The position numbers and the translations under genes are program-made. From contig JAGKQI010000061.1 of NCBI GenBank assembly GCA_018806915.1, positions 806,001 through 870,000 on the forward strand: 64,000 nt of DNA, given 5' to 3'. Each line of letters opens with the position of its first letter. Position 1 is the stretch's first letter. The DNA is from Phytophthora colocasiae. Taxonomy: Eukaryota > Oomycota > Peronosporomycetes > Peronosporales > Peronosporaceae. The notes beneath the pieces were generated by a model. The model was not told the origin of the DNA, did not search any database, and saw nothing but the letters and a program-made list of their open reading frames with translations. This document shows, in pieces, positions 30,286-62,181 of the stretch.

Positions 30286-31244
30286 ATAATAAAGTCGATA
30301 TGGATACATGTTGAAGATGGCCTCTATTTGGTCTTGGTCTTGCGTGCTGAAGCAGTAAAGAGCGAAGCTGCACTGTCGTCAATATACCTGTCGTGATCCT
30401 TAGTGTGCTGGATAAGAGCTCGCCACGCTCGACTTTGCTTCAACAGGTTAGAGTTCCCGACAATCCACAAGCTGCTCTTGGCTCGAGTGATGGCTACATT
30501 CATACGACGTTCATCAGCCCAGAAAGCGTCGAGCACATCGTCTTCGTTATTGCTTCTGCTTCTTCTCCTCTTCCTGCGACCGCCATGACTGGTACGTACA
30601 CACGAGTAGATAATAATCTCCTTCTCGCGACCTTGGAAACCGTCCACAGTGTTCACTTCGATTCCCAAGCGGCGATCAAACTCCGTCTCGAGCTTCCCAA
30701 TCGCACCACGCACTTCGTAGATCTGCTGTTTGTACGGTGCAATGACGCCGATACGTTTCTTCCACTCGATGCGGGGGAATTCAGTCAGTAGTCGACGGAT
30801 GAGCTGCACCACAGCCTCGACCTCACTCATATTCCACCGCTGACGTCCGAGCGCTTTGTAGTGATGCTCCGATACGAATACGTGCTGTACCCTTTGCCTT
30901 TTGTAGAGTAGATAGACCAGCTCCATCGAGTAAAGCGGAAAGAAGCCCAAGAATGGTCTTGGTTTTACCTGTTCCAGGCTGCACAATCACCAGATAGTTA
31001 GAAAAAATGCACACGTACACAAGCAGCACAACGTACCGGTCCTTGAACAATAACCCTGCTGTCTTCGCCCAAGCACCCAAGAATGGCCTGCACTTGCGAG
31101 TTGTAGTGCTTATGCAGATACTTCAGCAAGCGAGGAGAGAGAATGGAAGCAGATGCCGCAGCTTTCTTCGTCACCTGCTCAGTTTTCGCGGCAGGTACCA
31201 GTTTTCCGGTTTGTACACTTGTTTTAAGTCATTGGAGAAAAAGG
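30286..31244 (-). pseudogene. Sen1-like helicase, 3'-end duplicate with an 806-bp internal deletion
   Basis: Nearly identical, and in the same orientation, to the 3' part of the full helicase gene at 40781-42552 (offset 10,495 bp). The fragment keeps motif V (TVDGFQGREKEIIIYSC) and motif VI (RRMNVAITRAKSSLWIVGN). Relative to the full copy, 806 bp corresponding to 41331-42136 are missing at 30835/30836. That removes the DEAA (Walker B) and DHRQLP motifs and breaks the frame. Homology stops at about 31244 in the region upstream of Walker A. It cannot make a working helicase. Confidence 0.9.
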
Positions 31245-32120
31245 ATAGAAAACTGGAAAAGCTTCACGAGCTGGTGGATACTGTTGGACAGGAAACACTT
31301 GGATTGGTGCAGTCTTCCCTTTCACTCGCATTTCCATCATATCTCGAAAGTGGACGAGAACCTTCGTCACAGTAGATTTCACCCACAGGGGCGGCGGACA
31401 TCAAGCGAGCTGCTAAATTGATGGAGTCACCCACCGGTCACAGCGTATTCAGCTCGAGCAAAACTACCAACTGTTGTAAACTGCCTTGACCTTGAATTCA
31501 GCCATTTGTTTCTCGTGCTGACGATTAAGCTTGTCTGCTTGCTCTACTCGGTCTTTGTGGAAAGACTCGACAGTAGCTTCCACATCGCTTCCTGTTCTGC
31601 TTGTGACTTCTGGATGGAGTGGTCAGGATCGTCGGGATCCTTTTCTTTCTGGAGTAAGTGACTGGACATCTCTAACATCGTTGACTCTGCTTTGGTTCAG
31701 CAGTTTCCAACATCTCTTGAGTTTGGCAAGTCATTTTCCCTGCCAAAGAACTCATTTTCTTTCGTGAGGAAGAGCTTTTCTTTCTCTAGAAACTCTGTTT
31801 CTCTGTGCTCACGCTTCAAAATTTCCATTTCCAGATCCACACTGGTGTTTGTATTGGTATCCTTCAAGATGAGGCGCTGTTGAGGATGATCGTCCGGTTT
31901 ATCAATAGTAGGTTTGGCAGGAGAAGAATTCATCGCCAGCTTCTCCACTTCCTGCTCTTCTTCGTCGGTTTAAATGCGAGGTGGTGGAAATTTGGTCCGT
32001 TTATCGTTCTGGTTCAGCCCCCGTCGTCCTTCAGGGGTTGCAGCTTTTCCTTTACCATCTTGTAGTTGCCGGTCACCACCTTTGTTTCCTGCGTACCAGT
32101 GAGCGATACTTCGGCATCCC
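31245..32120 (-). pseudogene. Decayed coiled-coil gene fragment
   Basis: The minus strand encodes pieces such as SSPAKPTIDKPDDHPQQRLI, EKEKLFLTKENEFFGREND and EQEAMWKLL, with frame changes between segments near 31590. They are Glu/Lys/Asn-rich and resemble a coiled-coil protein. The upstream part is also present in the right inverted arm (plus strand, 40040-40371). The right copy ends with a different tail at 40372. The family is not recognised. Confidence 0.5.
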
Positions 32121-32394
32121 ATTTCCTTCAAGATCGGGAACTTGATACTTCAAATACTTGAAGTAGGACGTGTCAGACCATCCAAACCTGACAGACTTCA
32201 GCAATGAAATTTAGTACGAACACGTTATCAACAAGCACCGAACAACTCACCAGTCATGTGCCATTGACAGCTCCTCCAGCTTCGGTAATTGTGGGAACCC
32301 CACCATGGACCTAATGCTGACAGAATAACAAGTCAGTTAAATCGCAATAACATCGAATCCTCTAGCTTTAACTACCTATTGGTACTGCAGCCAC

Positions 32395-32463
32395 TCGTAC
32401 ATCTCCGGGTGCTGGATCTATATTGGTTGATAGATCCACACGGAGATGTACAAGTGGCTGCAG
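32395..32463. repeat. Imperfect hairpin inside the left arm
   Basis: CTGCAGCCACTCGTACATCT and its near-complement on the other side form a 33-36-bp stem around a loop of under 10 bases. The mirror copy lies at about 39730-39798 in the right arm. It could be a small foldback element or a remnant of local inverted duplication. Confidence 0.75.
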
Positions 32464-32869
32464 TGCATGAGATGTGATCTCGTTGATGTAGCTACTCGAC
32501 AGACAAAGTTCACAGGAACCGAGAGATGGAGCTTGCACGGAAGACCCACGAGGCAGTTGTGGCGCAGCTTTCAGGCGAAGAGAAGTTCTACTGCATTGAC
32601 CTTGTTATCACTCTTTTACGGACTAGATGAGCTCCCTTCTGCCTGAGAGTGGTGGTGTCTGCCTCCAATAAAACCAATTTACAACACTCCCACCAAATGT
32701 AACTATTTTTGCTCAAACAAATTCTATTCCGCATTCACTTCCAGCGGATATATGAAAATAGTTATCATATTGTGATTATTTACAACAGCAAATAATGATT
32801 TTTTATTCCATCTCATATTATAGAATAAAAATAAACCTAAAAACAAAAATAATAATAATTAAAAATAAA

Positions 32870-32992
32870 TTATGAATTTATTTTTTTATCCCAAGGATTA
32901 TTAAATTCAAATAATCTGTATTGTTGCGATAAATTAATAGGTTCATAAACTACTCTTTTTTTTAAATCATTATAAAAAACTTCAAGAAATCC
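32870..32992 (-). pseudogene. nad9: Mitochondrial nad9 3' fragment, outer copy of left arm (NUMT)
   Basis: The minus strand reads [20 protein letters not shown], then [20 protein letters not shown] and a stop at 32872-32870. This is the C-terminal end of NADH dehydrogenase subunit 9, normally encoded in oomycete mitochondrial DNA. Only about 40 codons are present, joined at 32992 to unrelated AT-rich sequence. Strong AT bias continues on both sides. The corresponding piece of the right arm (about 39205-39330, plus strand) has decayed further. Confidence 0.82.
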
Positions 32993-32999
32993 ATATTTG

Positions 33000-33340
33000 C
33001 ATTACCATTGTTCAAGTGAAATTACTTGTCTGTTGTGCAGTACTTATAATTCCAATATCAGCGACTTTTTTTGGCCACCATGGATTAGGCAGCTAAACTT
33101 TAGCTGACTTGGTCACTGACACATATTAGTAATTATAGTTCTAATATATTTGTATTATACTTATGAAAACAAAATCAGAATTATTTACAACTTATTAGTT
33201 CTTTAAAACTATTACATTCAAAAGTATACAAGTTAAAGAGGATTTTTTACGCTTTAAAAGCTTTTTTATCTTAAAGATTTAATACTTTTACTTTTTTTAG
33301 AAGATTTTTTTATCTTAACCAGTTTCATGTAAAAAAGAAA
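33000..33340. other. AT-rich spacer of the left arm, possibly organellar
   Basis: Very AT-rich sequence with no sustained frame. Short lysine-rich minus-strand frames and a plus-strand start MKTKSELFTTY at about 33164 could be organellar remnants, but I cannot assign them. The mirrored copy is at about 38860-39200. Confidence 0.35.
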
Positions 33341-33378
33341 AAGTTGTTAGAAAAGGGCATGCCCTTTTCTAACAACTT
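33341..33378. repeat. 38-bp perfect palindrome and neighbouring AAAAGGGCAT repeats
   Basis: The 38 bases starting AAGTTGTTAGAAAAGGGCAT equal their own reverse complement. The same AAAAGGGCAT word recurs three times at about 33460-33512, each followed by TAACCG or TGC. Two ATACCGGTAT-like palindromes lie between. The mirror of the palindrome is at 38819-38856. Such clusters are typical of transposase-binding subterminal repeats. Confidence 0.9.
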
Positions 33379-33568
33379 CGCATATACCGGTATAAAAGCT
33401 CAGCGATAAACCTTTAAAAACTGCTTATATACCGGTAATGGGTTGGCAAAACCGTTTTGAAAAGGGCATTAACCGTGCTGAAAAGGGCATTAACCGTTTT
33501 GAAAAAGGGCATTGCAAAAAAAAAATTTTGGGGAGAGTCGATCTCGCTGTCCCTCATTTCTCGATTCG

Positions 33569-33958
33569 ATGCGTTTCGCATCATTAATCAAGTATCAGTT
33601 CTACCCGGTGGTCGACAGGACGGGTAACGACGCTGTGACGAGATACGCGTGCAAACATTGCAACGCCGTTCTCTGTGTTACCGACGCGTCAAGAAAGGGT
33701 GCTTTTCGGTCAAGTAATGCAGCGAAGCACTTAGCTTCAAAGCATAGAATTTACTTTGCTAACCCAGCAAGAAGGGGCAAGTATTTTGGCAGCGACAGGC
33801 TTCGCGGTCTTGCGTACACCAAAACTTACAAGATAACGGGGTTTCAACTGCAGCTATTACCTCTGTGCATCTATGTCAAGAGTAAGTTGAAGTTGCAATC
33901 CCCTCGGCTTAGACATGCCTCTTTTCATTTCTTAATGATAGCGCAGTCTTGTTACTAG
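33569..33958 (+). CDS. BED zinc-finger protein fragment, hAT-transposase-like, left arm copy
   Basis: From ATG 33569 a 129-residue frame contains a BED-type pattern, CKHCNAVL followed by HLASKH, after an FYPVVDRTG stretch. This matches the N-terminal DNA-binding domain of hAT transposases and BED proteins. No catalytic domain follows; the frame ends in LMIAQSCY and a stop at 33958. Upstream in-frame sequence (from 33512) lacks an ATG. It is more GC-rich than its AT-rich surroundings, so it probably belongs to a transposon inserted into the NUMT-like DNA. An identical protein is encoded in the right arm. Confidence 0.6.
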   Translation: MRFASLIKYQFYPVVDRTGNDAVTRYACKHCNAVLCVTDASRKGAFRSSNAAKHLASKHRIYFANPARRGKYFGSDRLRGLAYTKTYKITGFQLQLLPLCIYVKSKLKLQSPRLRHASFHFLMIAQSCY

Positions 33959-34842
33959 GAGCCGAGGAAGAAGAAGCCTAAGATGTTGCGCTTGTTTAGC
34001 GCCCCAGTCTCTGCTATCGCTGTTTATCTACTGAGTCATCGGAGTAGTCCTAATGGTGCAAACTAACAATTGAAAAACGTGTTTGTTGATTACTACCTTC
34101 ATCAGACCTCTTTTCTTCTGCACTGTTACCTCCTGCCAGTCTCCGATGCTTGCAGAACATTACATATTTATCAAAAAATTAAAGTAGTTAAGGAATAAAA
34201 TGAAAAAATTGTTTTTTAAATAACTTTAATAAATTTTGATTTGATTGTTTTAAAGATCATTATTTCTAGCTAAACCAGTTTTTTGTTAATTTTTTATAAA
34301 ATTATTTATTACTAAAATTTAAGCAATAGTAATAATCTTCATTTAATATTAATAATTCTGAAGTTTTATTTCCTGAATATAATTTTTTTAACCGTTCTTA
34401 GGGAACTGAAAAAAAGGTATTGCAATGTTAGATAATTTAGGCTTTAACAATACCACTGATGGTAGCCCCTTCGCGTACACAGTGACTTTGTAAACTCTAA
34501 AAACTCACCAATTGAAAATGGAAGGTAGCAAAACGCCTCCTTCGACGTGTAGCCATTTCAAAGGATTGGCAATACATGTTTTCTATTTTTTTAAATGGTC
34601 AACGATTATTTGCTACAAATTCTATTCCGCAAAAAACTTTCAGCGGATTTATGTAAACATAATTTTTTATGAAAATGGCCATTTTTTGCCGAAATCGTAA
34701 TGTGACTTTTTACAACAGCAAAAAAAATATTTTTATTCCTTCTCATACTATAGAATAAAATAAACCTAAAACAAAAACAAAATAATAATTAATAAATTAT
34801 GAATTGATTTTTTTACGTCAAGATTCTTAAATTCATAAAATA
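33959..34842. other. AT-rich part of the left arm, no gene
   Basis: Holds the 3' end of the BED-type frame and then AT-rich DNA. From about 34610 it repeats, with differences, the sequence downstream of nad9 already seen at 32700-32870 (for example ACAAATTCTATTCCGC and TTTTACAACAGCAAA). Each arm therefore has an internal direct repeat of about 300 bp. Confidence 0.5.
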
Positions 34843-34990
34843 TGATGGTTGCGATAAATTAATAGGTTCATAAACTACTCTTTTTTTTAAATCATTATAA
34901 AAAACTTCAAGAAATCCACTTAAAGGAAAATCTTTTCGTAATGGATGTCCTTCAAAACCGTAATCAGTTAAAATACTTGATGATTTATAA
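34843..34990 (-). pseudogene. nad9: Mitochondrial nad9 fragment, inner copy of left arm (NUMT)
   Basis: The minus strand encodes [20 protein letters not shown] followed by [20 protein letters not shown], the most conserved block of NADH dehydrogenase subunit 9. The frame diverges after LSQ, and the upstream side becomes irregular just before the piggyBac insertion at 35014. Standard codons are used. The right-arm mirror copy (37208-37355, plus strand) is nearly identical. This is strong evidence for mitochondrial DNA in a nuclear context. Confidence 0.9.
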
Positions 34991-35489
34991 ACAAATATAG
35001 GAAAATGAATAAGTTAACCTCTCTAAAGCGCTGCTCTGTATCATACAGATTAAGCTGTATGACTGCCTATCTTGCCATCAAGGTTTTCATCCGCATCTAT
35101 GCTGGGAAGATAGGTAGTGATTATTCACCCTCCATAAAAAATACGATATAAATCCGTAAGAGGTTTGCCGACCGTTCATTTGCGATTTTTTTCTCAACGA
35201 TGAAAAAGCATATTCTGTACATACAGAATACTAATGCTGTATCATACAGAACAAGTGCTACGCACAAACACAATGCCGTATGTCGTAATATTTTCTATGC
35301 TGTATTCTACAGAGTTGAGCTTTATCTTGGCAATGATACCAGTGCTGGACTGGCAAAAGGCGTGGCTCAGAGGGCTGTCGTTCGCAATGTTTCTAAGGCT
35401 CTCGCAGGTCATTGCAGACAATTACTACAGCTCGTGCGCTCTAGTGCTGAGACTGCTTGAGAAGGGCTACTACTATGTTGTAACCCGTT

Positions 35490-36010
35490 ATTTATAGCGT
35501 TCGTCGACATGGTAATTGTTAACGCGTTCATCCTGCACAAAGCGGTGCTTCAGAAGAAATGAGAGCAAGTTCCCACTCGTGCTAAGTACATGCGCCGTTT
35601 GCATGTGGAGCTTCTGAATGTATCCAAAGTCACGTTGCGGAGCAACATCAACGCGGAGGATTTAGCGACAGTGCCTACGCCAGCGGACGACCACACGCTT
35701 GTGAACACCGACGATATGTACGAAGGCGGGTAGAACGCGAAGAGGCACCATCACCTCTGCAAAGTTTGCTCGGCAATGGCTGTGCCCAAAACGAAAAGAT
35801 ATGAGAGCAGTTAGTACTGCCCCACCTGCACGGAACTTTGCGGAGGCTACGTACCTCTCTGCAATCGCGTCCGTCGAGAGGCGTCTGGAAGTATGTTGAC
35901 GTGCAGCCAAATTTGGCATCAATCATGGGCAAACAGAACAGAATCATTTCAAGAAGATTCGCTTCCGTGAGCGCAAGCGTAAGCGCCATGACGCTAAGGA
36001 GAAGAAAGAG
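35490..36010 (+). pseudogene. PiggyBac transposase C-terminal remnant
   Basis: Plus-strand sequence encodes FIAFVDMVIVNAFILHKAVL, the last part of the DDE_Tnp_1_7 domain. After several stops and a polar linker comes HHLCKVCSAMAVPKTKRYES, then YCPTCTELCGGYVPLCN, the Cys-rich C-terminal zinc-binding domain of piggyBac-like transposases. At least three in-frame stops show it is dead. The second piggyBac copy at 62.2-64 kb has related motifs (FLGLVDMALVNAFIVFRHYK, CKVCAIFKTKPRKYSKYYCP). Confidence 0.82.
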
Positions 36011-36059
36011 AAGAACAATGCCAGTGAGAATAGTGATTAGAACAGTCAGTGAGTTGAGG

Positions 36060-36160
36060 TTCGAACCTTATTGCTTCACACACCAAAGTTTTCGGCCAGT
36101 TCTATCCTAGTTCTTCTTCACTTCTGTCTAGTCTAGAACTGGCCGAAAATTTGGTGAGTG
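36060..36160. repeat. Small foldback sequence within the piggyBac element
   Basis: Two inverted arms of about 27 bp (ACCAAAGTTTTCGGCCAGTT and its near-complement) surround a spacer of about 30 bp. It has no coding capacity and may be a tiny MITE. Confidence 0.6.
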
Positions 36161-36387
36161 AATCGCATGGCACTTGCCTCCCTCCTCCAAACGTGTGGGC
36201 GCGAAACATGGCGCCAAAATCAGTTTTCAATCAATTTAGGCGTGAGGTGATTTGCTGATTTGTATAGCCAATCAGGAAACGTAAATCTGTCAGCTGGCTT
36301 TAAAATTGCAACGTTTCTACTACATCTCGCAGTACCTTTGCCACAAGCAGGCTTATAACAGACTATGTATGAGAGTTTTAAAAAGTA

Positions 36388-37121
36388 CCGTAGTATCGGT
36401 GTCAAGTGTCACCCCCCTCGGGTCGCCAAATCAAATGATAAGGAAAAGTACAAGGTGCTGGTTATGGATGGGACAACGATTGCGCTACTAATGCTGACTC
36501 TAATTTTGTGAATGTGTCTATCAACGACGTCGTCGTCCCAGGAAACTTCTCCTGCGCTGTCATCTAGCCACGACAAAGCTTGTAAGGCATTAGCCAGCTC
36601 TTCGTCGATTTTGTCTGCCCCTACATCTTCGTTTGAAAAGTCCGTGCGCTCGTCGAACACGTCGGTAGCGTTTTAGTTGCGCAGTCTTAGTTTTAGCAGC
36701 CATTTCCAAAATGTCAACCTTCTTTGACTTCCAGCGTCTAATAACACGTGCTTTAGACTGATATGTCGTGCTAGCTGGGTCGATTCCAGGCCACAACGTC
36801 CGAATCACGACCCGCATTTCTCGGGTTTCGTACAGACGGAGTGCAGCAGCCTTGAAAGCGAAAGTCTCCGACGTCAGCTTGAGCTGCGTAGGTTTCCGGC
36901 CTCCGCCTCGCCACGACACCCGCATTCGAGTCCTTGTTCGCCGGCTTCTTCTCTATTCTGCGGTTGTTCTGGTTATGCTGCACTGGCTTCAAGGAACTCG
37001 GGGCTGACACTTAACAAAACGGTGCGAATCCTACTTGTCCAACCCCCAATACACAGCTTTCATTGGTCAATATAGGGGGGTGACACTTGACAAATGCGGA
37101 CACTTGACACCGATACTACGG
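36388..37121 (-). mobile_element. 734-bp pogo-like non-autonomous element inside the piggyBac element
   Basis: Terminal inverted repeats start CCGTAGTATCGGTGTCAAGT and are flanked by TA (36386-36387 and 37122-37123). A second GTCAAGTGTC copy lies just inside the right end. The minus strand keeps only an N-terminal helix-turn-helix-type region and an acidic C-terminal tail of a pogo-like protein; the DDE core is absent. Confidence 0.82.
36409..36925 (-). pseudogene. Internally deleted pogo-like transposase remnant
   Basis: Minus-strand frames encode RRWKSKKVDILEMAAKTKTA (basic, helix-turn-helix-adjacent) and, in another frame from about 36660, FDERTDFSNEDVGADKIDEE, an acidic tail. The catalytic domain that should lie between them is missing. 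Confidence 0.55.
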
Positions 37122-37184
37122 TATACTAAAAATACAATATAGACTAATTCTGTATGATACAGAGCAGCGCTTTAGAGAGGTTAA

Positions 37185-40100
37185 CTTATTCATTTTCCTA
37201 TATTTGTTTATAAATCATCAAGTATTTTAACTGATTACGGTTTTGAAGGACATCCATTACGAAAAGATTTTCCTTTAAGTGGATTTCTTGAAGTTTTTTA
37301 TAATGATTTAAAAAAAAGAGTAGTTTATGAACCTATTAATTTATCGCAACCATCATATTTTATGAATTTAAGAATCTTGACGTAAAAAAATCAATTCATA
37401 ATTTATTAATTATTATTATTTTTGTTTTTAGGTTTATTTTTATTCTATAATATGAGATGGAATAAAAAATCATTATTTGCTGTTGTAAAAAGTCACATTA
37501 CGATTTCGGCAAAAAATGGCCATTTTCATAAAAATTATGTTTACATAAATCCGCTGAAAGTTTTTTGCGGAATAGAATTTGTAGCAAATAATCGTTGAGC
37601 ATTTAAAAAAATAGAAAACATGTATTGCCGATCCTTTGAAATGGCTACACGTCGAAGGAGGCGTTTTGCTACCTTCCATTTTCAATTGGTGAGTTTTTAG
37701 AGTTTACAAAGTCACTGTGTACGCGAAGGGGCTACCATCAATGGTATTGTTAAAGCCTAAATTATCTAACATTGCAATACCTTTTTTTCAGTTCCCTAAG
37801 AACGGTTAAAAAAATTATATTCAGGAAATAAAACCTCAGAATTATTATTATTGTATGAAGATTATTACTATTGCTTAAATTTTAGTAATAAATAATTTTA
37901 TAAAAAATTAACAAAAAACTGGTTTAGCTAGAAATAATGATCTTTAAAACAATCAAATCAAAATTTATTAAAGTTATTTAAAAAACAATTTTTTCATTTT
38001 ATTCCTTAACTACTTTAATTTTTTGATAAATATGTAATGTTCTGCAAGCATCGGAGACTGGCAGGAGGTAACAGTGCAGAAGAAAAGAGGTCTGATGAAG
38101 GTAGTAATCAACAAACACGTTTTTCAATTGTTAGTTTGCACCATTAGGACTGCTCCGATGACTCAGTAGATAAACAGCGATAGCAGAGACTGGGGCGCTA
38201 AACAAGCGCAACATCTTAGGCTTCTTCTTCCTCGGCTCCTAGTAACAAGACTGCGCTATCATTAAGAAATGAAAAGAGGCATGTCTAAGCCGAGGGGATT
38301 GCAACTTCAACTTACTCTTGACATAGATGCACAGAGGTAATAGCTGCAGTTGAAACCCCGTTATCTTGTAAGTTTTGGTGTACGCAAGACCGCGAAGCCT
38401 GTCGCTGCCAAAATACTTGCCCCTTCTTGCTGGGTTAGCAAAGTAAATTCTATGCTTTGAAGCTAAGTGCTTCGCTGCATTACTTGACCGAAAAGCACCC
38501 TTTCTTGACGCGTCGGTAACACAGAGAACGGCGTTGCAATGTTTGCACGCGTATCTCGTCACAGCGTCGTTACCCGTCCTGTCGACCACCGGGTAGAACT
38601 GATACTTGATTAATGATGCGAAACGCATCGAATCGAGAAATGAGGGACAGCGAGATCGACTCTCCCCAAAATTTTTTTTTTGCAATGCCCTTTTTCAAAA
38701 CGGTTAATGCCCTTTTCAGCACGGTTAATGCCCTTTTCAAAACGGTTTTGCCAACCCATTACCGGTATATAAGCAGTTTTTAAAGGTTTATCGCTGAGCT
38801 TTTATACCGGTATATGCGAAGTTGTTAGAAAAGGGCATGCCCTTTTCTAACAACTTTTTCTTTTTTACATGAAACTGGTTAAGATAAAAAAATCTTCTAA
38901 AAAAAGGGAAAAAAGTAAAAGTATTAAATCATTAAGATAAAAAAAGCTTTTAAAGCGTAAAAAATCCTCTTTAACTTGTATACTTTTGAATGTAATTGTT
39001 TTAAAGAACTAATAAGTTGTAAATAATTCTGATTTTGTTTTCATAAGTATAATACAAATATATTAGAACTATAATTACTAATATGTGTCAGTGACCAAGT
39101 CAGCTAAAGTTTAGCTGCCTAATCCATGGTGGCCAAAAAAAGTCGCTGATATTGGAATTATAAGTACTGCACAACAGACAAGTAATTTCACTTGAACAAT
39201 GGTAATGCAAATATGGATTTCTTAAAGTTTTCTATAATGCTTTAAAAAAGAGTAGTTTATGAACCTATTAATTTATCACAACAATACCGATTACTTCATC
39301 CTTGGGATAAAAAAATAAATTCATTTTTTGTTTTATTATTTTTTTGTTGTGAGTTTTTTTATTCTATAGTTCATGTATGAGATGGAATAAAAACATTATT
39401 TGCTGTTGTAAGCAATCACAATATGATAACTATTTTCATATATCCGCTGGAAGTGAATGCGGAATAGAATTTGTTTGAGCAAAAATAGTTTCATTTGAAG
39501 GTGGGAGTGTTGTAAATTGGTTTATTGGAGGCAGACACCACCACTCTCAGGCAGAAGGGAGCTCATCTAGTCCGTAAAAGAGTGATAACAAGGTCAATGC
39601 AGTAGAACTTCTCTTCGCCTGAAAGCTGCGCCACAACTGCCTCGTGGGTCTTCCGTGCAAGCTCCATCTCTCGGTTCCTGTGAACTTTGTCTGTCGAGTA
39701 GCTACATCAACGAGATCACATCTCATGCACTGCAGCCACTTGTACATCTCCGTGTGGATCTATCAACCAATATAGATCCAGCACCCGGAGATGTACGAGT
39801 GGCTGCAGTACCAATAGGTAGTTAAAGCTAGAGGATTCGATGTTATTGCGATTTAACTGACTTGTTATTCTGTCAGCATTAGGTCCATGGTGGGGTTCCC
39901 ACAATTACCGAAGCTGGAGGAGCTGTCGATGGCACATGACTGGTGAGTTGTTCGGTGCTTGTTTTGATAACGTGTTCGTACTCAATTTCATTGCTGAAGT
40001 CTGTCAGGTTTGGATGGTCTGACACGTCCTATCAAGTTCCCGATCTTGAAGGAAATGGGATGCCGAAGTATCGCTCACTGGTACGCAGGAAACAAAGGTG

Positions 40101-40371
40101 GTGACCGGCAACTACAAGATGGTAAAGGAAAAGCTGCAACCCCTGAAGGACGACGGGGGCTGAACCAGAACGATAAACGGACCAAATTTCCACCACCTCG
40201 CATTTAAACCGACGAAAAAGAGCAGGAAGTGGAGAAGCTGGCGATGAATTCTTCTCCTGCCAAACCTAGTATTGATAAACCGGACGATCATCCTCAACAG
40301 CGCCTCATCTTGAAGGATACCAATACAAACACAAGTGTGGATCTGGAAAAGGAAATTTTGAAGCGTGAGCA
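37185..40371 (-). repeat. Right arm of the large inverted repeat
   Basis: Reverse copy of 31806-35013, beginning immediately after the right TTAA of the piggyBac element. It contains the mirror nad9 fragments (37208-37355 and about 39205-39330), the BED-type frame, the 38-bp palindrome (38819-38856), the hairpin and part of the decayed coiled-coil gene. It is slightly shorter (3,187 bp against 3,208 bp) and its outer nad9 piece is more diverged. Confidence 0.92.
38239..38628 (-). CDS. BED zinc-finger protein fragment, right arm copy
   Basis: Minus-strand mirror of the 129-residue frame at 33569-33958, with the same CKHCNAVL and HLASKH motifs and no amino-acid change that I can see. Perfect conservation here contrasts with decay of the nearby outer nad9 fragment. 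Confidence 0.6.
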   Translation of the reverse strand: MRFASLIKYQFYPVVDRTGNDAVTRYACKHCNAVLCVTDASRKGAFRSSNAAKHLASKHRIYFANPARRGKYFGSDRLRGLAYTKTYKITGFQLQLLPLCIYVKSKLKLQSPRLRHASFHFLMIAQSCY

Positions 40372-40780
40372 AGCTATCCAGCGCTTGTCTGTTGGTCAAT
40401 AACCTCAAATTCACTCTCGGAGGTGCGCACAACGTCGAAACGGAACGCTTCTCCTTCGTATTCCGCCGCGAGATAGTGAAACTCGGCTGGATACTCCGAA
40501 CTGAGGTGTCCGTACCGCTCGGCGTATTAACTCGGTAGACTGTCAGCAGCAAAGTGTGTGTGTGACCATGATGTGGTCCATAATGTACTACTAGTACTTA
40601 ATATCAATCTCATTTGTGCATTGGTTCTGTCGGGCTAGCTGGTTGATTTCATTTACGACTTCTTCCACTGAAAATTCTGTCGCGTTGGCAGTCACTGGGG
40701 TGGAAACCCGCCAACTGAAGGTCACTGAGATGGTTAAGTCGCTCTTCTTCCTGGAGTGCGTGTGTAGGTGATTTCGACCA
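40372..40780. other. Unique segment between the inverted arm and the helicase gene
   Basis: About 410 bp absent from the left side. The plus strand has a short frame (NNLKFTLGGAHNVETERFSF...) ending in a stop at about 40537. It looks like a gene fragment that I cannot identify. The helicase homology begins at 40781. Confidence 0.35.
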
Positions 40781-40818
40781 ATAATAAAGTCGATATGGAT
40801 ACATGTTGAAGATGGCCT

Positions 40819-43800
40819 CTATTTGGTCTTGGTCTTGCTTGCTGAAGCAGTAAAGAGCGAAACTGCACTGTCGTCAATATACCTGTCGTGATCCTTAGTG
40901 TGCTGGATAAGAGCTCGCCACGCTCGACTTTGCTTCAACAGGTTAGAGTTCCCGACAATCCACAAGCTGCTCTTGGCTCGAGTGATGGCTACATTCATAC
41001 GACGTTCATCAGCCCAGAAAGCGTCGAGCACATCGTCTTCGTTATTGCCTCTGCTTCTTCTCCTCTTCCTGCGACCGCCATGACTGGTACGTACACACGA
41101 GTAGATAATAATCTCCTTCTCGCGACCTTGGAAACCGTCCACAGTGTTCACTTCGATTCCCAAGCGGCGATCAAACTCCGTCTCGAGCTTCCCAATCGCA
41201 CCACGCACTTCGTAGATCTGCTGTTTGTACGGTGCAATGACGCCGATACGTTTCTTCCACTCGATGCGAGGGAATTCAGTCAGTAGTCGACGGATGAGCT
41301 GCACCACAGCCTCGACCTCACTCATATTCCGAAGAGAAGTGGACCCGCTCACTTGGCTCTGACTTCCCTCTACATCCAGGAACAGCAATGGCTTGAAGGC
41401 ACGATCTTGATGATACTCCTGTGCAGTCCATTCACTCATATTGTCGTCCTGTACCAGTCGACCACCGTAGAAGTGAGATGACGGGAACTCGGCGATCTCA
41501 GGGTGCATACGGTATTGTTGATTCAGCAGCAGCACGGGCGAGTCATTCTCCACAAGCCGCTGCTGCAAACTCCGGTCATAGCCCATGGTCACGAGCTTCT
41601 TGGACATCACAGTGGCTGGTAACTGGCGATGATCACCCACTAGCACAACTCGGTGCGGTCGGAACTTGAACGGGATGAGGGTGCTAGCCTCCACCGCTTG
41701 AGCAGCTTCGTCGATGATTAAAGCATCAAAGTCTTGAGCGAATTCGCACATCGCCACGGAGCCAGCTCCACTCAGCGTGCAAAATACAATCTGTGCGTTC
41801 TTGATAATCGCCTGGCGAGCTTGCTTCACAGTAGGAAATGTGCTGCGGTGCTTCGTCACCAAGCTCTCAAGCAGGACCTCTTCCACCTCGCGAGCGTACT
41901 TTCGCATTTTCTTGCGGTTTTTCTTGCTTTCACTGGCTTCCCTGGCTGCAGCTAAGCTCGAAAGTTGCTGGCTGCTCTCCGGACGACCGACACGCACGAT
42001 TCGTGGACGATAGGACTCGCCCTTTCCACCATCAAATAGTCCTTCGCTTAGGACTCGGACAACCAGCTCATCGACGGCAGCATTGCTAGGTGCAGCCACA
42101 AGAACGCGAATGGAGGTTTCAGCCACAGTCTTGGATACCGCTGACGTCCGAGCGCTTTGTAGTGATGCTCCGATACGAATACGTGCTGTGCCCTTTGCCT
42201 TTTGTAGAGTAGATAGACCAGCTCCATCGAGTAAAGCGGAAAGAAGCCCAAGAATGGTCTTGGTTTTACCTGTTCCGGGCTGCACAATCACAGGTAGTTA
42301 GAAAAAAGATGCACACGTACACAAGTGCACAACGTACCGGTCCTTGTACAATAACCCTGCTGTCTTCGCCCAAGCACCCAAGAATGGCCTGCACTTGCGA
42401 GTCATTGTAGTGCTTATGCAGATACTTCAGCAAGCGAGGAGAGAGAATGGAAGCAGATGCCGCAGCTTTCTTCGTCACCTGCTCAGTTTTCGCGGCAGGT
42501 ACCAGTTTCCCGGTTTGTAGCACTTGTTTGAGGTCATTGGAGAAAAAGGATACAGACTTTATCGCTTGGAATTCGCGAGCACTTGTAGTTGTGTTGTGTA
42601 CTTGCTGCATCGACCATCGCCAATTAGGAACCCGCTGGTTTGAGAGACACAATTCCGTCAAGGCGCTGAAGTGTTCGACTGCATCGTCTTGATCTCGCTG
42701 TTGAGCACGTATCAGCACACAGATCTGATCGCTTTCTCCCGCCCCACCTTTGCCTCCAGGGCCAGACTTTCCTCCCACTGCAACTACGGAGTCACACAAA
42801 ACCACGCCAAACACGCACATTTCGTAGTTCTTCCAGCGAGGCGAGCGCAATAGCACCAAATCGCCACTTAAAAAGTCTGAAGAAGCCTTCTTACCCAGCG
42901 CGGAGGCATCAAATGTGAGAATGTAGTCGTTGTTGCCGGATGTGTTCCCAGTAAAGCCACTTTCAGAGAATATGGCGCCAAGACTCAGCCCCATCGAAGG
43001 TGTAGACATCCCTTGCCCACCGCAAGGCGATATTGACGCGAGTGATAGTTGCCGAGTTGGTCCTGAGCTTCCACCACCTCGCCTGTCCGTTGTATTGCTG
43101 ACAGATGCCATCAATTCTTCCATGATCGCCTCGATCTGTACAGAGCAATAGTCCTCGATGGAAGAATGTTGAGCTGGTAGTTTCCCATGCGAATATTTTT
43201 GAAGATGAAGTCTCTTCTTGTCGAACCCACGGACATTACCCGGTGATAAGTCCAACAGGAAGTCGTAGAATTCATCCAGAGCTGGCCACAGCAGAGAACT
43301 CTTAACACTCGGTGGCTTTTTACTGGTAGACGAAAGACCAGGGCTCTTCCGTTTCTTGGATGCGGATTTCACTGGAACTGACGGCGGTGACGTCGAGGCA
43401 GCAGCATGTAAATCTGGCTTGGGTTTTGGGGTATTGTTTTTCTTAACAGTGACACTGACTGTACTTGCTGGCTTCTTCGAATCTCCCCCCGCTGCTCTCA
43501 AAGCCGCTTCCAGTACATTCGAGCTAAGAGGGGTATCATCTTCTTCGTCATCATCGCTTTCCGACTCGGATGACGATGACGATGACGTTTCGATCACTTC
43601 TCGACGTTTTACACGGGTTACGATCGAAACATCTTCATCTTCACTTTCTTCAACTTTCTCTTCTGTGTTGTTAGGAGCAGTGGTTCGTTCGAGAATGTCA
43701 CTGCTCGCTGGTGTACCTGATTTTTGAACTGCATCAGGTTCGTTAATAACCATCGTCTCAGATGGGTACGGGTCAACAGGAGTAGATGCTGTCGGTGATG

Positions 43801-49285: not shown

Positions 49286-50841
49286 TTACATTGAAATAAT
49301 ACTGGAGGTGCTACCGACACTCATGCGTTCGTGCATCAGTCGATTACTGCGGCTTCGCTCACGGACGGAACGGGCAACTGCAGATTGTTCTCGTGTGAAC
49401 TGGAGCGTTTCTTCAACTTGGTTGGACATTTGCTGTAGTTTGGCCATCAACGACGTCTGATGCTGCTCCGTGTCGTCCGCGTGCGACGAACTTGTCGACG
49501 TCGTGGAGCTCCGACTGCGACGCGTCACTGGTGCTTTCTCGTAGATCACAACCGTCGTACTCTTCAACCTGCTCGAGTTGAGAACATCGCGGCCTTCGCT
49601 CTCATTGTCGATGTCGACCTCCTCGCCTTCTTCATCAGATGAAGCCCACCCGATGGACGACAAATTAGATGCACGGACGTCGCTGTGGCTGCCCAACATG
49701 TGCACTCGCATGGAAATATTGAGGTCGAACGACACCAGAGAACGCTCACTGCCCGGTATAGTTGACACCTCGACGTCTTCCTGTTGGTCTGTCGCGGCTT
49801 CAAGTCGAAGCTGATCAACAGAAAGTAAATTCATTTTCGAGAAGCATTGGCGACAAAAGTCTGCTCGCTTTGTGTGACCCAGCGTACCACAGACGAGAAT
49901 GGTCTCTCGAAAGCGACACTTCTTACACACCGGTTTGCTACAGCCAGTACAGCTTACGAAGCTGCTGAAGATGGACGAGCTGCCTTTGCAAATGTGGCAA
50001 GACTTCCGAAACGAGCTGTGCCACGCACCAAGACTATTCGCTGCCGCCATCAGGGCCAGTTTCTTGGCACGTGTACATTCCAGTGCATTGACGAAAGCCA
50101 ACAATACGTCCGACATGGCTTTCGTCACGAAGTAGGACTGGGTGCCGACGTCGATCTCCCCCTTCATGTAGACACCGACCAGGTCATCCTCCAGTTCCTC
50201 GAACAGGTAGCACAAGGACACGTGCGCGCGCTGGTGTTTCATCTTGTACGACGGATCCGCTACGTCCACGGACTGCATGACGTGGTACGACACGCTGTTG
50301 CTTGACGGACCATCCCCATCTTGTCGAAGTAACAGAAGTCTCGGTTGTTTCCCATGGTCAGCTTGATGGTCGCCCATTTGATTCCAGTGAAGGCGTATGG
50401 CTCGGTCCGCGACTTCTTCTGCACCACTTCCAGCACAGAACCGTCAGCCAGTCTCGGACACAAGAAGGTGTCCATGAGCTGCATATCCTCCGTGTTGTCG
50501 CAGTAAAGGCCTTCGAGGACGTCGTTGAATCGAGCGTGCAAGGTACCGATACACAGAATCGGGGTGTGACGAACGGAGTTGCCACCACGAAATAACCGGA
50601 CCCCACGCTTCGACTGCAGGGATTTCCACCGCTTGACGTCGATGTCTCCGTCCAACTTCCCGTAGGCGTTGATGGTCTCTGTTAATGCCTTCTCCGCTCG
50701 GTCATGGCAGCGGTCGAGGTCGTACAGCTCCAAATCCACAGTCGGATGTTCGGAACGACGACTACGCGGCGGCATTGGAACGGGGAGGAGGTTCATGAAC
50801 CTCTGGCCGAAACGGGGGCGGCTGGAAACCGGGAGGGCCAT
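49286..50841 (-). pseudogene. START/zinc-finger paralogue A, frameshifted
   Basis: ATG 50841 opens a protein like paralogues B-D (PRSRRSEHPTVDLELYDLDR, then YAFTGIKWATIKL, FCYFDKMGMVRQ). After VRQ only 17 nt separate the conserved Gln and His codons, where the others have 24, so the frame shifts near 50300. The correct continuation (SYHVMQSVD...FEELEDDLVGVYMKG) is open in another frame to the stop at 49286. It includes the zinc-binding Cys pairs CHIC, CTGC, VCKKC and FCRQC. Apart from this 7-nt net loss the gene looks intact, so it is either recently inactivated or a sequencing/assembly error. Confidence 0.82.
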
Positions 50842-51700: not shown

Positions 51701-53248
51701 TTATTGTAAACGATCGAGTTCCTCTAACAGTGAAGGTGTGAAAATCTCCACGTTGTCTTCGTCATAATCAAACGACGTTGAAGAACTGAATGTTGCAGAG
51801 CTGCATCGGTGCAACATCTCGGGTAAAATCTTGGCCGTCGATACGATCGTATCGCTTTTCAGTCTACTCGCGTTGAGCACGTCTTCCTCGTCGCTTTCGC
51901 TATCGAGAGCCCCGAAATATTCCCCCACCACAGCCATCTGCCCCATGGACGACAAGTTGGAGGCCCGTTCATCACTGCCAGTATTCAATTCTTGCATCTG
52001 AATCGAGACTCTGCGCACGAACGTTGTTAAAACTCGTTGGTTGTCATCGTCCACGTCTTCGAGCACTTCCTCAACTGCAGCGGGTGCAGGAGCTGGTATC
52101 GTTTTATCTCCATCGCCTTCAAGGCGTAGCTGGGTGAGAGATGACAGGCTCACCTTGGAGATACACACACTGCAGAACATGGCTTGCTTTGGGCAGCCTG
52201 AGCTTATGTCGTGAGTAAAAAGATACTCCTTACTCCGACACTTCTTGCAAACATTTTCTCTGCATCCAGCACAGCTACTGAAGCTCTCGAAAAACGATGG
52301 TTTGCTTTTGCAGATGTAACAAGTCTTCTTTCGACTATAACGGGATACACTTGGACCATCTCCTGATATCAGAAGCTTCAGTTTCTTCGCGCGTGTACAA
52401 TCCAAAGCTTTGCTAACATGAGCTAGCAGTACTTCCGACACTGCACTTCTGGCGAAGTAAGACAGCGCAGAGTAGTTCAGCGAGCCTTGCATGTACACAC
52501 CGACCAAGTTGTCGTCCAGTTCTTCAAACAAGTAGCACAACGACATTTCCAAACGTTTGTGTGTCGGTATAGCGGGGATTTCCGGTAGATCCACGGACTG
52601 CAGGACGTGATAGGCCATTCTTTTCCCTGAAGACTGGCGCACCATCCCGATTTTGTCGAAGTAACACGAATCCCGGTCGCTCGCCACTGACACTTTGATC
52701 GTCGCGGACTTGACCCCCGTGAACTCGTACGGGTCCTCTGGACTGTGATGCTGCACAGTGTAACGCACCGCGCTATTGGAAAGTCTCGGACATTTGATGG
52801 CGTTCATGAGCAGAATCTCATCGGTATCTGCAGCATAAATCCCTTCGATGACATCGTCAAAACGACCGTGGAGAGTCCCTGCACAGAGCAATGGAGTCTG
52901 GCCGTCGCTATTCACGCGAACACCTCGGAATAGTCGAACAGTTTGTCGAGATCGAATGCATTTCCACTTTGACGGCTCAATAACTTGTCCTAATTTGCCG
53001 TAGTTTGCGATCGAATCGGTTAATGCGCGTTCGGCACGATCATGATAACGATCCAGTTCTGGTAAACCCAGCGCCACAACGGGAAGTTCGGTTGGGCGAA
53101 GTGGTAAAGTGCTCCTGGACTGTCGAGAAAGAGTGGCGGTTAGACGTTCCATCGCGTCGAGACTTTTGATACTGAGGTTTTGATACTGAGGTTGAGCGGA
53201 GTCAAAGCCTTTGACATGCGTGAGAGCAGCCATGTGGTTTTGACTCAT
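51701..53248 (-). CDS. START/zinc-finger paralogue B
   Basis: Single exon, 515 residues. Residues about 65-270 resemble the START-like region of its neighbours (LPELDRYHDRAERALTDSIA, CAGTLHGRFDDVIEGIYAAD, YEFTGVKSATIKVSVASDRD). An eight-Cys zinc module lies at about 310-370 (CYIC, CAGC, VCKKC, FCSVC) and replaces the RHHCR signature of true FYVE fingers. The tail is acidic and Ser-rich with FYVE-array motifs such as ERASNLSSMGQMA and DVLNASRLKSDT. The N-terminus is longer than in the paralogues and has a QPQYQNLSIK stretch; MAALTH, five codons later, is an alternative start. It is likely a lipid-responsive endomembrane protein, by analogy only. Confidence 0.82.
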   Translation of the reverse strand: MSQNHMAALTHVKGFDSAQPQYQNLSIKSLDAMERLTATLSRQSRSTLPLRPTELPVVALGLPELDRYHDRAERALTDSIANYGKLGQVIEPSKWKCIRSRQTVRLFRGVRVNSDGQTPLLCAGTLHGRFDDVIEGIYAADTDEILLMNAIKCPRLSNSAVRYTVQHHSPEDPYEFTGVKSATIKVSVASDRDSCYFDKIGMVRQSSGKRMAYHVLQSVDLPEIPAIPTHKRLEMSLCYLFEELDDNLVGVYMQGSLNYSALSYFARSAVSEVLLAHVSKALDCTRAKKLKLLISGDGPSVSRYSRKKTCYICKSKPSFFESFSSCAGCRENVCKKCRSKEYLFTHDISSGCPKQAMFCSVCISKVSLSSLTQLRLEGDGDKTIPAPAPAAVEEVLEDVDDDNQRVLTTFVRRVSIQMQELNTGSDERASNLSSMGQMAVVGEYFGALDSESDEEDVLNASRLKSDTIVSTAKILPEMLHRCSSATFSSSTSFDYDEDNVEIFTPSLLEELDRLQ

Positions 53249-53638: not shown

Positions 53639-55204
53639 CTACTGACTCACGTATCCCAAACTGTCGGACGAGTGAGTGTTTCGACGACTACGTGCACGCA
53701 CCGAATGTGCGACCAAAGACTGCTCGCGAGCGTAAAACAACGTTTCTTCGGCCTGGTTGGTCACTTGCTGGAGCTTTGCAAACAGCGAGTTACGGAACTG
53801 TTCGGGGTCGTCGTGCTCGTGTCCGAATGAAGACGACGTAGTCGATGTCGTGGAGCACGGACTTCGACCTGACATATCCCTCTTCTTGTCCAGAACCACG
53901 AACTGACCGCTCTTGAGTCGACTCGAGTTCAGCACATCTTTGCTCTCATCTGGGTCGTCCTCCGACGCCTTCCCCATGGATGACAAACTGGACGCCCGGA
54001 TGTCGCCGCGTGCACTCAACTCCTGCATTTGAGCCGAGATTTTGCGGACAAAAGACGTTAAGGATCGGTCGCTGCCTGGGATATCTACCTTTACGTCCTC
54101 TGTCTCTTCGTCAATCCCGCAGAACGACCCGTTTTGCATCGTGCCCAACTCGGCCACGCTGTATCCGCCCACTTCCGCCCGAATCTGATCCAGAGAGGAC
54201 AAGTTCATCTTGGAGATACACACGTTGCAGAACTCGGCACGTTTCAGGTGCGAATCGGAAGTCAAGTCACGGGCGAGAACGTGCTCTTTAAACCGGCACT
54301 TCTTACACACAAGTTTGCTGCATCCCGCACAGCTATTCAGACTGTCGAAGAACGACGCACTTGCTTTGCAGACGTAGCAGTCCTTCCTCGAATTGCGTCT
54401 TCGAAGCCTAGAACGGTTCGCAGCTATACATGTAATCTGCGCCAATTTCTTTGCTCGAGTGCACTCTAACGTGTTGGCAACCGCCAGCAACACGTCTGAT
54501 ACTGCAGTCGTCGCGAAACAGGACATGGCAGTGTAATTCATCTGTCCTTGCATGTAGACGCCCACTAGATCGTCCTCCAATTCCTCCAACACATAGCAGA
54601 GTGACATTTGCACGCGTTTGTGCATCGATTGATGCGGATACTCGAGTAGATCCACTGATTGCATGACGTGGTATGCCATCCGCTTCCCCGACCGCTGCCG
54701 GACCATCCCCATTTTGTCAAAGTAACACAAGTCTCGGTTGCTCGCCACTGCCAACTTGACAGTCGCCCACTTGATGCCCGTGAACGCGTACGGTTCGAGT
54801 AGAGATTTCTTCTGTACGGCATACAATACGGCGCTTTCTGCCAGTCTCGGGCATTTGATGGCGTTCATAAGCAGCATTTCCTCCGTGTTGTCGCAGTAAA
54901 GACCTTCAAGGACGTCGGCGAAGCGTCCTCGTAGAGTTCCGACACACAGTAACGGGGTCTGTCCTGCGTCGGTCACGGATCGTCCACGAAATAGACGAAC
55001 GCCGTGTCGAGTGCGGATACTTTTCCACCGGTTGGTGTCCACATTCCCATCCAACGTCCCGTACGCTGCGATGGTCTCACTTAACGCTAACTCTGCCAGG
55101 TCGTGGTAACGATCGAGTTGAGGCAGCTCCAGTGTCACTGTGGGGTGGTCAGCTCGCCGACTTCGCAGCGACTTGGAGCGTGTCGGAACGGGGAGGCAAC
55201 TCAT
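53639..55204 (-). CDS. START/zinc-finger paralogue C
   Basis: Single exon, 521 residues from ATG 55204 (MSCLPVPTRSKSLRSRRADH). It shares with A, B and D the sequence LPQLDRYHDLAELALSETIA, PRLAESAVLYAVQKKSLLEP, AFTGIKWATVKLAVASNRDL and RMAYHVMQSVDL. The eight-Cys zinc module reads CYVC, CAGC, VCKKC and FCNVC (about 285-345). A polyserine tail (STTSTTSSSFGHE) and QVTNQAEETLFYAREQSLVA near the end are shared with A and D. This is the best-preserved member of the tandem trio and serves as the reference for the family. Confidence 0.85.
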   Translation of the reverse strand: MSCLPVPTRSKSLRSRRADHPTVTLELPQLDRYHDLAELALSETIAAYGTLDGNVDTNRWKSIRTRHGVRLFRGRSVTDAGQTPLLCVGTLRGRFADVLEGLYCDNTEEMLLMNAIKCPRLAESAVLYAVQKKSLLEPYAFTGIKWATVKLAVASNRDLCYFDKMGMVRQRSGKRMAYHVMQSVDLLEYPHQSMHKRVQMSLCYVLEELEDDLVGVYMQGQMNYTAMSCFATTAVSDVLLAVANTLECTRAKKLAQITCIAANRSRLRRRNSRKDCYVCKASASFFDSLNSCAGCSKLVCKKCRFKEHVLARDLTSDSHLKRAEFCNVCISKMNLSSLDQIRAEVGGYSVAELGTMQNGSFCGIDEETEDVKVDIPGSDRSLTSFVRKISAQMQELSARGDIRASSLSSMGKASEDDPDESKDVLNSSRLKSGQFVVLDKKRDMSGRSPCSTTSTTSSSFGHEHDDPEQFRNSLFAKLQQVTNQAEETLFYAREQSLVAHSVRARSRRNTHSSDSLGYVSQ

Positions 55205-60561: not shown

Positions 60562-62181
60562 ATGGCACATCAACAAAGAACAAGCGTCAGTCGCTCCAGA
60601 GCTTCACAGCGTTCCATGCGTCGCCTCACTGTGCCAGCTCTCTCCATGTCGTTGCGTAGTCGTCGAGCAGAACACCCGACCATCACTCTTGGCTTGCCAC
60701 AACTCGACCGATTCCACGATCGAGCTGAAAAAGCTTTGAGCGAAACCATCGCAGTGTCCGCCAATGTGCAACAGAACGTCGACCAGGCACAATGGAAATG
60801 CCTCCGGTCACACAATGGCGTTCGACTACTACGCAGTCGTCTCCCCACTGCAACGGGCCAAATCCCTTTACTTTGTCTTGGAGCTCTGCGTGGCAGCTTC
60901 GAGGACATCATGGAAGGAATCTACTGCCAAAGTACAGAGGAAATGCTACTCATGAATGCCATCAAGTGTCCACGACTGACAGAAAGCGCCGTGCTGTACA
61001 CTGTCCAGCGGCAAACCATGTGCGAACCCTACGCTTTCACGGGGATCAAATGGGTCACGATGAAATTGTCAGTGGCGAGCAATCGAGATTTCTGCTACTT
61101 TGACAAAATGGGGTTGGTTCGTCAAACCATGGGCAATCGAATGGCTTACCATGTCCTGCAGTCGGTGGATCTACCTGAGTATCCACACAAAGCAATGCAC
61201 AAACGTGTGCAAGCTTCACTATGCTACGTGTTCGAGGAGCTGGAGGACGATCTGGTTGGTGTCTACATGCAAGGAGAAATGGACCAAACAGCTTTATCGT
61301 ACTTTTCCACACCGGCAATGTCAGACCTACTCCTGGCACCAGCCAACGCAATGGAATGCACTCGAGCCAAGAAACTCGCTGCAATGATGACACCTCCAAC
61401 GAACTGGAAACGTCGACCGTCTCGTCGATGCTGTGACGTGTGTCGTGGTAGTGCTTCATTCTTCGAAAGCCTGCAAGAATGTGCAGGTTGCGACTTCAAA
61501 TACGTGTGCAAGAAGTGCAGAGTGAAGGAGAACGTCCTTGCACGGGATATGACGTCGAACTCGCACCTGATGCGAGCTGAGTTCTGCCGTGTGTGTATCT
61601 CCAAGATGGACTCCTTGACTATTGAAGAGCTACGCATGCAAGTTGGAATGACTGGAGAACGTACAGCTGACATGAATGCCGCCTTTTGCGAAGTCGAAGA
61701 GGAGCCGGAAGACGTCGACATTCCTGGCAGTGATCGGTCCTTGACAGCTTTCACACTCAAGATCTCAGCTCAATTGCAGGATCTCAGCAGCCGCAGTGAT
61801 GCTCGTATGTCCAATTTGTCATCTCTAGAGAAGGTGTCGATCTCTGAGGATGAAGACGACGCAGCTGAAGGCCGAGACGTGCTCAACTCATTTGGAAAGA
61901 AGAGCAGCCAGATCGTGCCGTTTGAAAAGGATCCAACCGATACATCACGACGAAGTTCCCGTTCTACAGCATCAACGGCATCTTCATCATACTACCACGA
62001 CGACGATGAATTGGAGCAATATCGGTCGTCACTCTTTGCGAGGCTTCTGCAAGTGTCGAATCAAGCAGAAGCAACGTTTCACCTCACACAAGAACAGTCA
62101 ATTATTGCAAATTCCGTCTTCCATCGGAATCGCAGAGCCACACAAACATCAAACGGAGCTAGTAGGACACACTATCATTAA
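60562..62181 (+). CDS. START/zinc-finger paralogue D, stop codon at a piggyBac target site
   Basis: Single exon, 539 residues from ATG 60562. It has the family's START-like region (LPQLDRFHDRAEKALSETIA, YAFTGIKWVTMKLSVASNRD, RMAYHVLQSVDL), the eight-Cys module CDVC, CAGC, YVCKKC and FCRVC, and the polyserine tail (STASTASSSYYHDD). It is on the opposite strand to A-C and about 5.4 kb away, so the cluster includes an inversion or a separate copy. The frame ends THYH and then TAA, and this TAA is part of the TTAA at 62178-62181 where a piggyBac element begins. The C-terminus is similar in length to that of paralogue C, so few if any residues were lost. Confidence 0.85.
   Translation: MAHQQRTSVSRSRASQRSMRRLTVPALSMSLRSRRAEHPTITLGLPQLDRFHDRAEKALSETIAVSANVQQNVDQAQWKCLRSHNGVRLLRSRLPTATGQIPLLCLGALRGSFEDIMEGIYCQSTEEMLLMNAIKCPRLTESAVLYTVQRQTMCEPYAFTGIKWVTMKLSVASNRDFCYFDKMGLVRQTMGNRMAYHVLQSVDLPEYPHKAMHKRVQASLCYVFEELEDDLVGVYMQGEMDQTALSYFSTPAMSDLLLAPANAMECTRAKKLAAMMTPPTNWKRRPSRRCCDVCRGSASFFESLQECAGCDFKYVCKKCRVKENVLARDMTSNSHLMRAEFCRVCISKMDSLTIEELRMQVGMTGERTADMNAAFCEVEEEPEDVDIPGSDRSLTAFTLKISAQLQDLSSRSDARMSNLSSLEKVSISEDEDDAAEGRDVLNSFGKKSSQIVPFEKDPTDTSRRSSRSTASTASSSYYHDDDELEQYRSSLFARLLQVSNQAEATFHLTQEQSIIANSVFHRNRRATQTSNGASRTHYH

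Follow-up and report, generated by a model that had tools for sequence, protein, structure and literature searches.

A probable fold-back inverted duplication primed between the ends of a piggyBac element in Phytophthora colocasiae

Introduction

How does a cut-and-paste transposon come to lie in the middle of an inverted duplication of its own flank? The question is raised by a 64,000-nt stretch of the Phytophthora colocasiae genome (assembly GCA_018806915.1, contig JAGKQI010000061.1, positions 806,001 to 870,000; hereafter the window, in whose coordinates all positions are given), in which an initial annotation had noticed inverted arms on both sides of a piggyBac element and had suggested either alternative transposition or fold-back repair of a broken intermediate as their origin. 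Comparison of the window with itself and with relatives of the element in the genome (G000; 92.5 Mb, 105 contigs) points to fold-back priming, or a strand switch of equivalent effect, at a 15-nt repeat inside the ends of the element, and we assign a probability of roughly 0.84 to this reading, counting its break-primed and fork-based versions jointly.

Results

Extent of the inverted duplication

Self-BLAST of the window confirmed an inverted duplication of about 3.2 kb per arm around the element in the assembly, positions 31806–35052 pairing with 37145–40371 (3,272 aligned columns, 96.8% identity). The annotated stop precisely at the TTAA sites was not borne out: the symmetry is unbroken across TTAA and extends 32 bp inside the element, with 35014–35049 the exact reverse complement of 37149–37184. 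The insert between the TTAA sites at 35014–35017 and 37181–37184 has the annotated length of 2,163 bp and is a composite rather than a single element, consisting of a 1,425-bp piggyBac derivative and a nested miniature inverted-repeat transposable element (MITE) at 36386–37123. Since the centre of symmetry is thus shifted 32 bp into the element, we favour fold-back over transposition.

The arms differ from each other at 16 of 2,493 aligned bases (6/866 and 10/1,627) outside two AT-rich blocks, and within these blocks at 36/293 (12.3%) and 16/382 (4.2%) positions. The blocks are called nad9-like here as in the initial annotation, a tentative name given on reading by eye; it found no backing in a Pfam search of the whole genome with PF00329 for nad9 or a mitochondrial contig, which gave no match. 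The annotated indel between the arms is present, the largest one spanning 18 alignment columns and not 16.

Ends of the element and the inner switch point

The genome search revealed related copies on contigs C20, C33, C48 and C81 (~3.6 kb) and on C80 and C95 (~1.5 kb), as well as a partial copy on C10. The first six are referred to as the complete relatives; the C10 copy, which has no intact left end, was excluded. Reading-frame pieces of two long copies (L062 and L061) matched PF13843 (DDE_Tnp_1_7) with E-values of 5.6e-28 and 1.2e-21, the match in the 3.6-kb relatives falling into two pieces, and TTAA flanks both sides of all six complete relatives. We take this transposase domain as piggyBac-type, and the family is a member of that superfamily, as annotated. 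The longest frame in the window element has 130 amino acids and no intact transposase was found; the window copy, which differs from the C80 copy by 3.6% (50/1,407), is an internally deleted, non-autonomous piggyBac relative.

Comparison of the ends revealed how the window copy departs from its family. In 6/6 complete relatives the sequence is TTAACCCCTCTAAAGCGCTGC+TCTGTATCATACAGA at the left end and TCTGTATGATACAGA+ATAAAACCTCGCTTTAGAGGGG+TTAA at the right; the two ends are dissimilar, having in common the 15-nt inverted repeat and the outermost bases and differing in the bases between, so that the last 22 nt of the native right end do not resemble the left end. The right end of the partial C10 copy, though damaged, is of the native type as well. 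In the window copy, native right-end sequence continues through the 15-nt repeat and is followed by the reverse complement of the element's own left end, TTAA and the left flank. The change from right-end to inverted left-end sequence falls inside the 15-nt repeat, the sequence inward of the repeat being that of the native right end and the sequence outward of it that of the left end.

A genome-wide search for the left end (≤3 mismatches) returned 15 places, two of them in the window and 13 elsewhere; both window ends carry the variant CCTCTCT, which none of the 13 others has. The native right terminus, searched at the same threshold, occurs six times in the genome, each time in a complete relative, and was not found in the window at up to 3–4 mismatches. 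Because the ends of the relatives differ, the window ends share a private left-end variant and the native right terminus is gone, the perfect terminal repeat of the window copy, which had been annotated as a feature of the element and whose halves do mirror each other exactly, is best read from these comparisons as a rearrangement product and not as native. The right TTAA of the window is likewise part of the inverted copy and hence no independent target duplication.

These ends bear directly on alternative transposition, in which an inverted flank would result from the transposase joining either element ends of sister chromatids or the reversed ends of a pair of elements. Ac/Ds sister-chromatid transposition is stated, in the excerpt of PMC3744419 considered here, to yield flanking inverted duplications. 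A transposase works at termini, however, and in the window the native right terminus is gone and the change lies 22 nt inward; moreover, no left or right end of the family was found at the outer boundaries 31806 and 40377 at ≤3 mismatches. No junction exactly at a native terminus was observed, nor did the target junction show an end of the transposon, and we regard this suggestion of the initial annotation as highly improbable.

Left ends without a native right end occur outside the window as well. C50 carries seven of the 13 other left ends, and no native right end was found there at ≤3 mismatches. In the three of the seven that were inspected, no right end was recognised; two have the same flank and therefore look like duplicated DNA. 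The closest facing pair of left ends on this contig is ~63 kb apart, so C50 holds no left–left elements like the window copy. No inverted flanks were present at any of the six complete relatives (~2–3 kb checked on each side). Among the other 71 loci (276,344 bases, partly overlapping), inverted pairs of ≥150 bp were found in two, L056 and L063, and one partner of the L063 pair lies within the element.

Direction of copying and the outer junction

A paralogous gene on C22 (L059) aligns to the left arm and on past its outer boundary (31561–32133 with L059 4848–4200, and 31468–31560 with 5199–5101), and the C22 alignment of the right arm ends at 40377. Because the C22 order continues past the left boundary and stops at 40377 on the right, the left arm is, judged by this paralogue, the ancestral template, from which the right arm was copied. 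C22 bases that are missing from the left arm are retained in the right arm, for which reason we place the true end of the latter near 40377 rather than 40371, where the self-alignment stops. At 40377/40378 the change to other DNA is abrupt, with zero shared bases when C22 is used as a stand-in for the template and no visible microhomology.

The same paralogue allowed differences between the arms to be polarised: in 624 columns, two are left-derived, three right-derived and one unpolarised. This strengthens the argument of the initial annotation against an artefact of assembly or library construction, that is, mis-joined haplotypes or an amplification chimera. Short inverted homologies can produce chimeras in amplified DNA, and part of the arm differences could be mimicked by differences between haplotypes. 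Against such an origin stand the derived changes on both arms together with the divergence of the nad9-like blocks, and the C22 bases retained by the right arm and lost from the left. We consider an artefact very unlikely.

Interior of the element and order of events

The interior of the element between the two 15-nt repeats has no second copy in the window by self-BLAST. The nested MITE has five near-full-length copies of 97–100% identity elsewhere in the genome, the remaining copies being shorter or more diverged, and is missing at the corresponding site from 6/6 complete relatives.

The order of events might also have been the reverse, a palindrome with TTAA at its exact centre having formed first, the element having inserted there, and a later conversion between the arms having reached into the element and exchanged its right terminus for left-end sequence. 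TTAA, the piggyBac target, is self-complementary, gene conversion between palindrome arms is a known process, and the nad9-like blocks have exchange-like patterns between copies. This order nevertheless requires an unexplained palindrome with zero spacer, an exactly central TTAA, insertion at that very site and a conversion tract that ends within the 15-nt repeat. The element also carries 22 private substitutions in 1,346 columns as compared with 16 arm-to-arm differences in 2,493 columns once the nad9-like blocks are set aside, a dating that is weak evidence because the private changes could be older than the insertion and differences between the arms could have been erased by homogenisation. 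We judge this order of events unlikely and, like alternative transposition and an artefact, a worse fit than fold-back.

Features of the locus

The features on which this analysis relies, and the DNA joined to the right arm, are listed in Table 1.

Table 1 Features of the inverted duplication and its surroundings, in window coordinates.
Feature	Position	Strand	Basis
Left arm (original)	31806..35013	+	Self-BLAST; contiguous with paralogue C22 past arm boundary
Left-arm make-up, in order: rearranged pseudogene segment (31806–32690), first nad9-like block (AT-rich), middle segment, then the inner nad9-like block as far as TTAA			
TTAA and left end of piggyBac copy, variant CCTCTCT for CCCCTCT	35014..35049	+	Genome-wide left-end search
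15-nt subterminal inverted repeat, left copy, TCTGTATCATACAGA	35035..35049	+	Near both ends in 6/6 complete relatives
Proposed loop: interior of internally deleted piggyBac element	35050..36385	+	Comparison with relatives
Nested MITE, 734 bp flanked by TA on either side, inverted ends of 25 bp	36386..37123	+	Genome search
15-nt subterminal inverted repeat, right copy, TCTGTATGATACAGA; switch point	37149..37163	+	Comparison with relatives
Left-end copy, GCAGCGCTTTAGAGAGG and TTAA; complete relatives have ATAAAACCTCGCTTTAGAGGGG and TTAA instead	37164..37184	-	
Right arm, inverted copy of left flank	37185..40377	-	Self-BLAST; outer end by paralogue C22
Unrelated DNA joined to right arm, 144 bp, 96% identity to C20:625053-625196	40378..40521	+	
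Dispersed-repeat segment between junction and helicase gene, partial copies on C54, C84, C26, C27 and C55	40511..40780	+	

Four nad9-like blocks were delimited, at 32764–32993, 34694–34918, 37280–37504 and 39214–39427. The outer-left and inner-right blocks have a common stretch that is unmatched in their respective arm partners, which suggests, on the alignment of these blocks, an exchange between copies after the duplication. Each arm further contains a small palindrome (32384–32464 and 39729–39809), not present in the C22 paralogue and probably the trace of an older, small fold-back at the same locus. Pieces corresponding to L059 4910–5099, missing at 31560/31561, sit at 32519–32680 in changed order and orientation; these displaced C22-like pieces point to older local shuffling.

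Beyond the arms, a gene with AAA_11/AAA_12 helicase domains, presumably Sen1-like, is partially duplicated in direct orientation (30286–31247 and 40781–42552). The duplication consists of two pieces, one of 550 bp at 99.3% identity and one of ~410 bp with eight mismatches, and the left copy is without the intervening 806 bp. Elsewhere in the window, segments that are ~72–77% alike occur in both orientations at 50161–50524, 52422–52900, 54483–54961 and 60864–61281, possibly a local gene family, and a perfect 67-bp inverted repeat lies at 6105–6171 and 8900–8966 with a spacing of 2.7 kb.

Discussion

The proposed mechanism starts from a non-autonomous piggyBac element within AT-rich nad9-like flank. 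At a break or a stalled fork, a strand ending in or past the right end of the element would have been exposed as a 3′ tail, and the right-end copy of the 15-nt subterminal repeat would have annealed with its complement near the left end of the same strand, the element interior forming a loop of ~1.4 kb, or of 2.1 kb if the MITE was present beforehand. The overhanging native right terminus would have been trimmed or corrected; synthesis would then have produced an inverted copy of the left terminus, TTAA and ~3.2 kb of the flank beyond, and end joining would have linked the new end to other DNA at 40377/40378. The fold-back repair suggested in the initial annotation thus fits well, with the fold placed at the subterminal repeat, where it replaces the right end, and not at TTAA. 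The inner junction falls within an inverted repeat that predates the event, as its presence in all complete relatives indicates; the loop is unduplicated, the sequence distal to the repeat is lost with an inverted copy in its place, and one arm stands in ancestral context while the other ends at a new junction. That a single event was responsible, what kind of lesion began it, and which polymerase and joining pathway took part are matters that we infer from these products.

Published work on yeast, done partly in repair mutants, backs each step in kind. According to the excerpts of these reports considered here, the loop of a fold-back can reach thousands of nucleotides, and short stems within ~50 bp of the break are used (PMC7467729); heterologous flaps are trimmed by DNA polymerase delta and corrected to a perfect palindrome (PMC10622511); fold-back priming can be followed by capture of the other end through end joining (PMC11724301); and inverted repeats up to 30 kb apart interact in single-stranded DNA (PMC10164571).

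The initiating lesion may have been a break that the piggyBac transposase made at the right terminus, when it cut abortively or at one end. Such a cut would be well placed to start a fold-back because its 3′ end would lie 22 nt from a subterminal repeat matching the other end, and we hold this origin of the break to be conceivable though rather doubtful. If it is true, failed excision of piggyBac has a built-in path to fold-back, duplication of the left flank and an element with two left ends.

A template switch between leading and lagging strands at a replication fork, by origin-dependent inverted-repeat amplification (ODIRA) or microhomology-mediated break-induced replication, could have used the same 15-nt repeat and would yield an identical inner junction; we count it as a tentative possibility within the joint reading. 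The right flank is a patchwork with further small rearrangements close by, and the excerpt of PMC10766183 prefers replication errors to breaks for such junctions in yeast. ODIRA, on the other hand, predicts an inverted triplication. Near-full arm copies numbered two in the genome search, a figure to be read as at least two, and not the three of a triplication.

Several points weigh against fold-back priming in either version. The original right flank was not recognised in a comparison of the DNA beyond 40377, the sole search made for it. A later gene conversion from arm to arm could in principle likewise replace the right terminus. The locus has been rearranged repeatedly, as the partial helicase duplication, the small nested palindrome and the shuffled C22-like pieces attest, and the order of events is partly known. 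At 3.2 kb, the copied tract far exceeds the local fold-backs described in the excerpt of PMC11724301. The seven left ends on C50 without a native right end also belong here and are counted neither for nor against.

The process itself is already known, and the window locus is an unusually clear and clean natural example of it. As a natural fossil, it narrows the inner switch point to a 15-nt interval, since the lost end can be read from sister copies of the transposon, and it illustrates how a palindrome could arise from end repeats that a cut-and-paste element itself carries. It also calls for caution, since perfect terminal repeats and a palindromic site may be products of rearrangement and not features of a transposon.

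We found no literature combining piggyBac with fold-back inversion and, among titles and abstract openings, recognised no similar case at transposon ends. Set beside known systems, as far as the excerpts of the cited papers describe them, the locus resembles yeast fold-back inversions (PMC7467729, PMC10622511), with which it shares a short inverted repeat, a loop, distal loss, an inverted proximal flank and a secondary join; it departs from those inversions in that a transposon supplies both the repeat, through its two ends, and the loop, and in that its arms, at 3.2 kb, are short and lie interstitially. Alternative transposition of Ac/Ds (PMC3744419) similarly places duplicated flanks next to a cut-and-paste element, whereas in the window the change lies within the element and the outer junction showed no transposon end. 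ODIRA (PMC10766183) has in common the strand switch at short inverted repeats and differs in its inverted triplication, two copies having been found here. Templated inverted insertions (PMC11724301) likewise combine local fold-back synthesis with subsequent end joining, over 2 to ~150 bp as against the 3.2 kb of the window.

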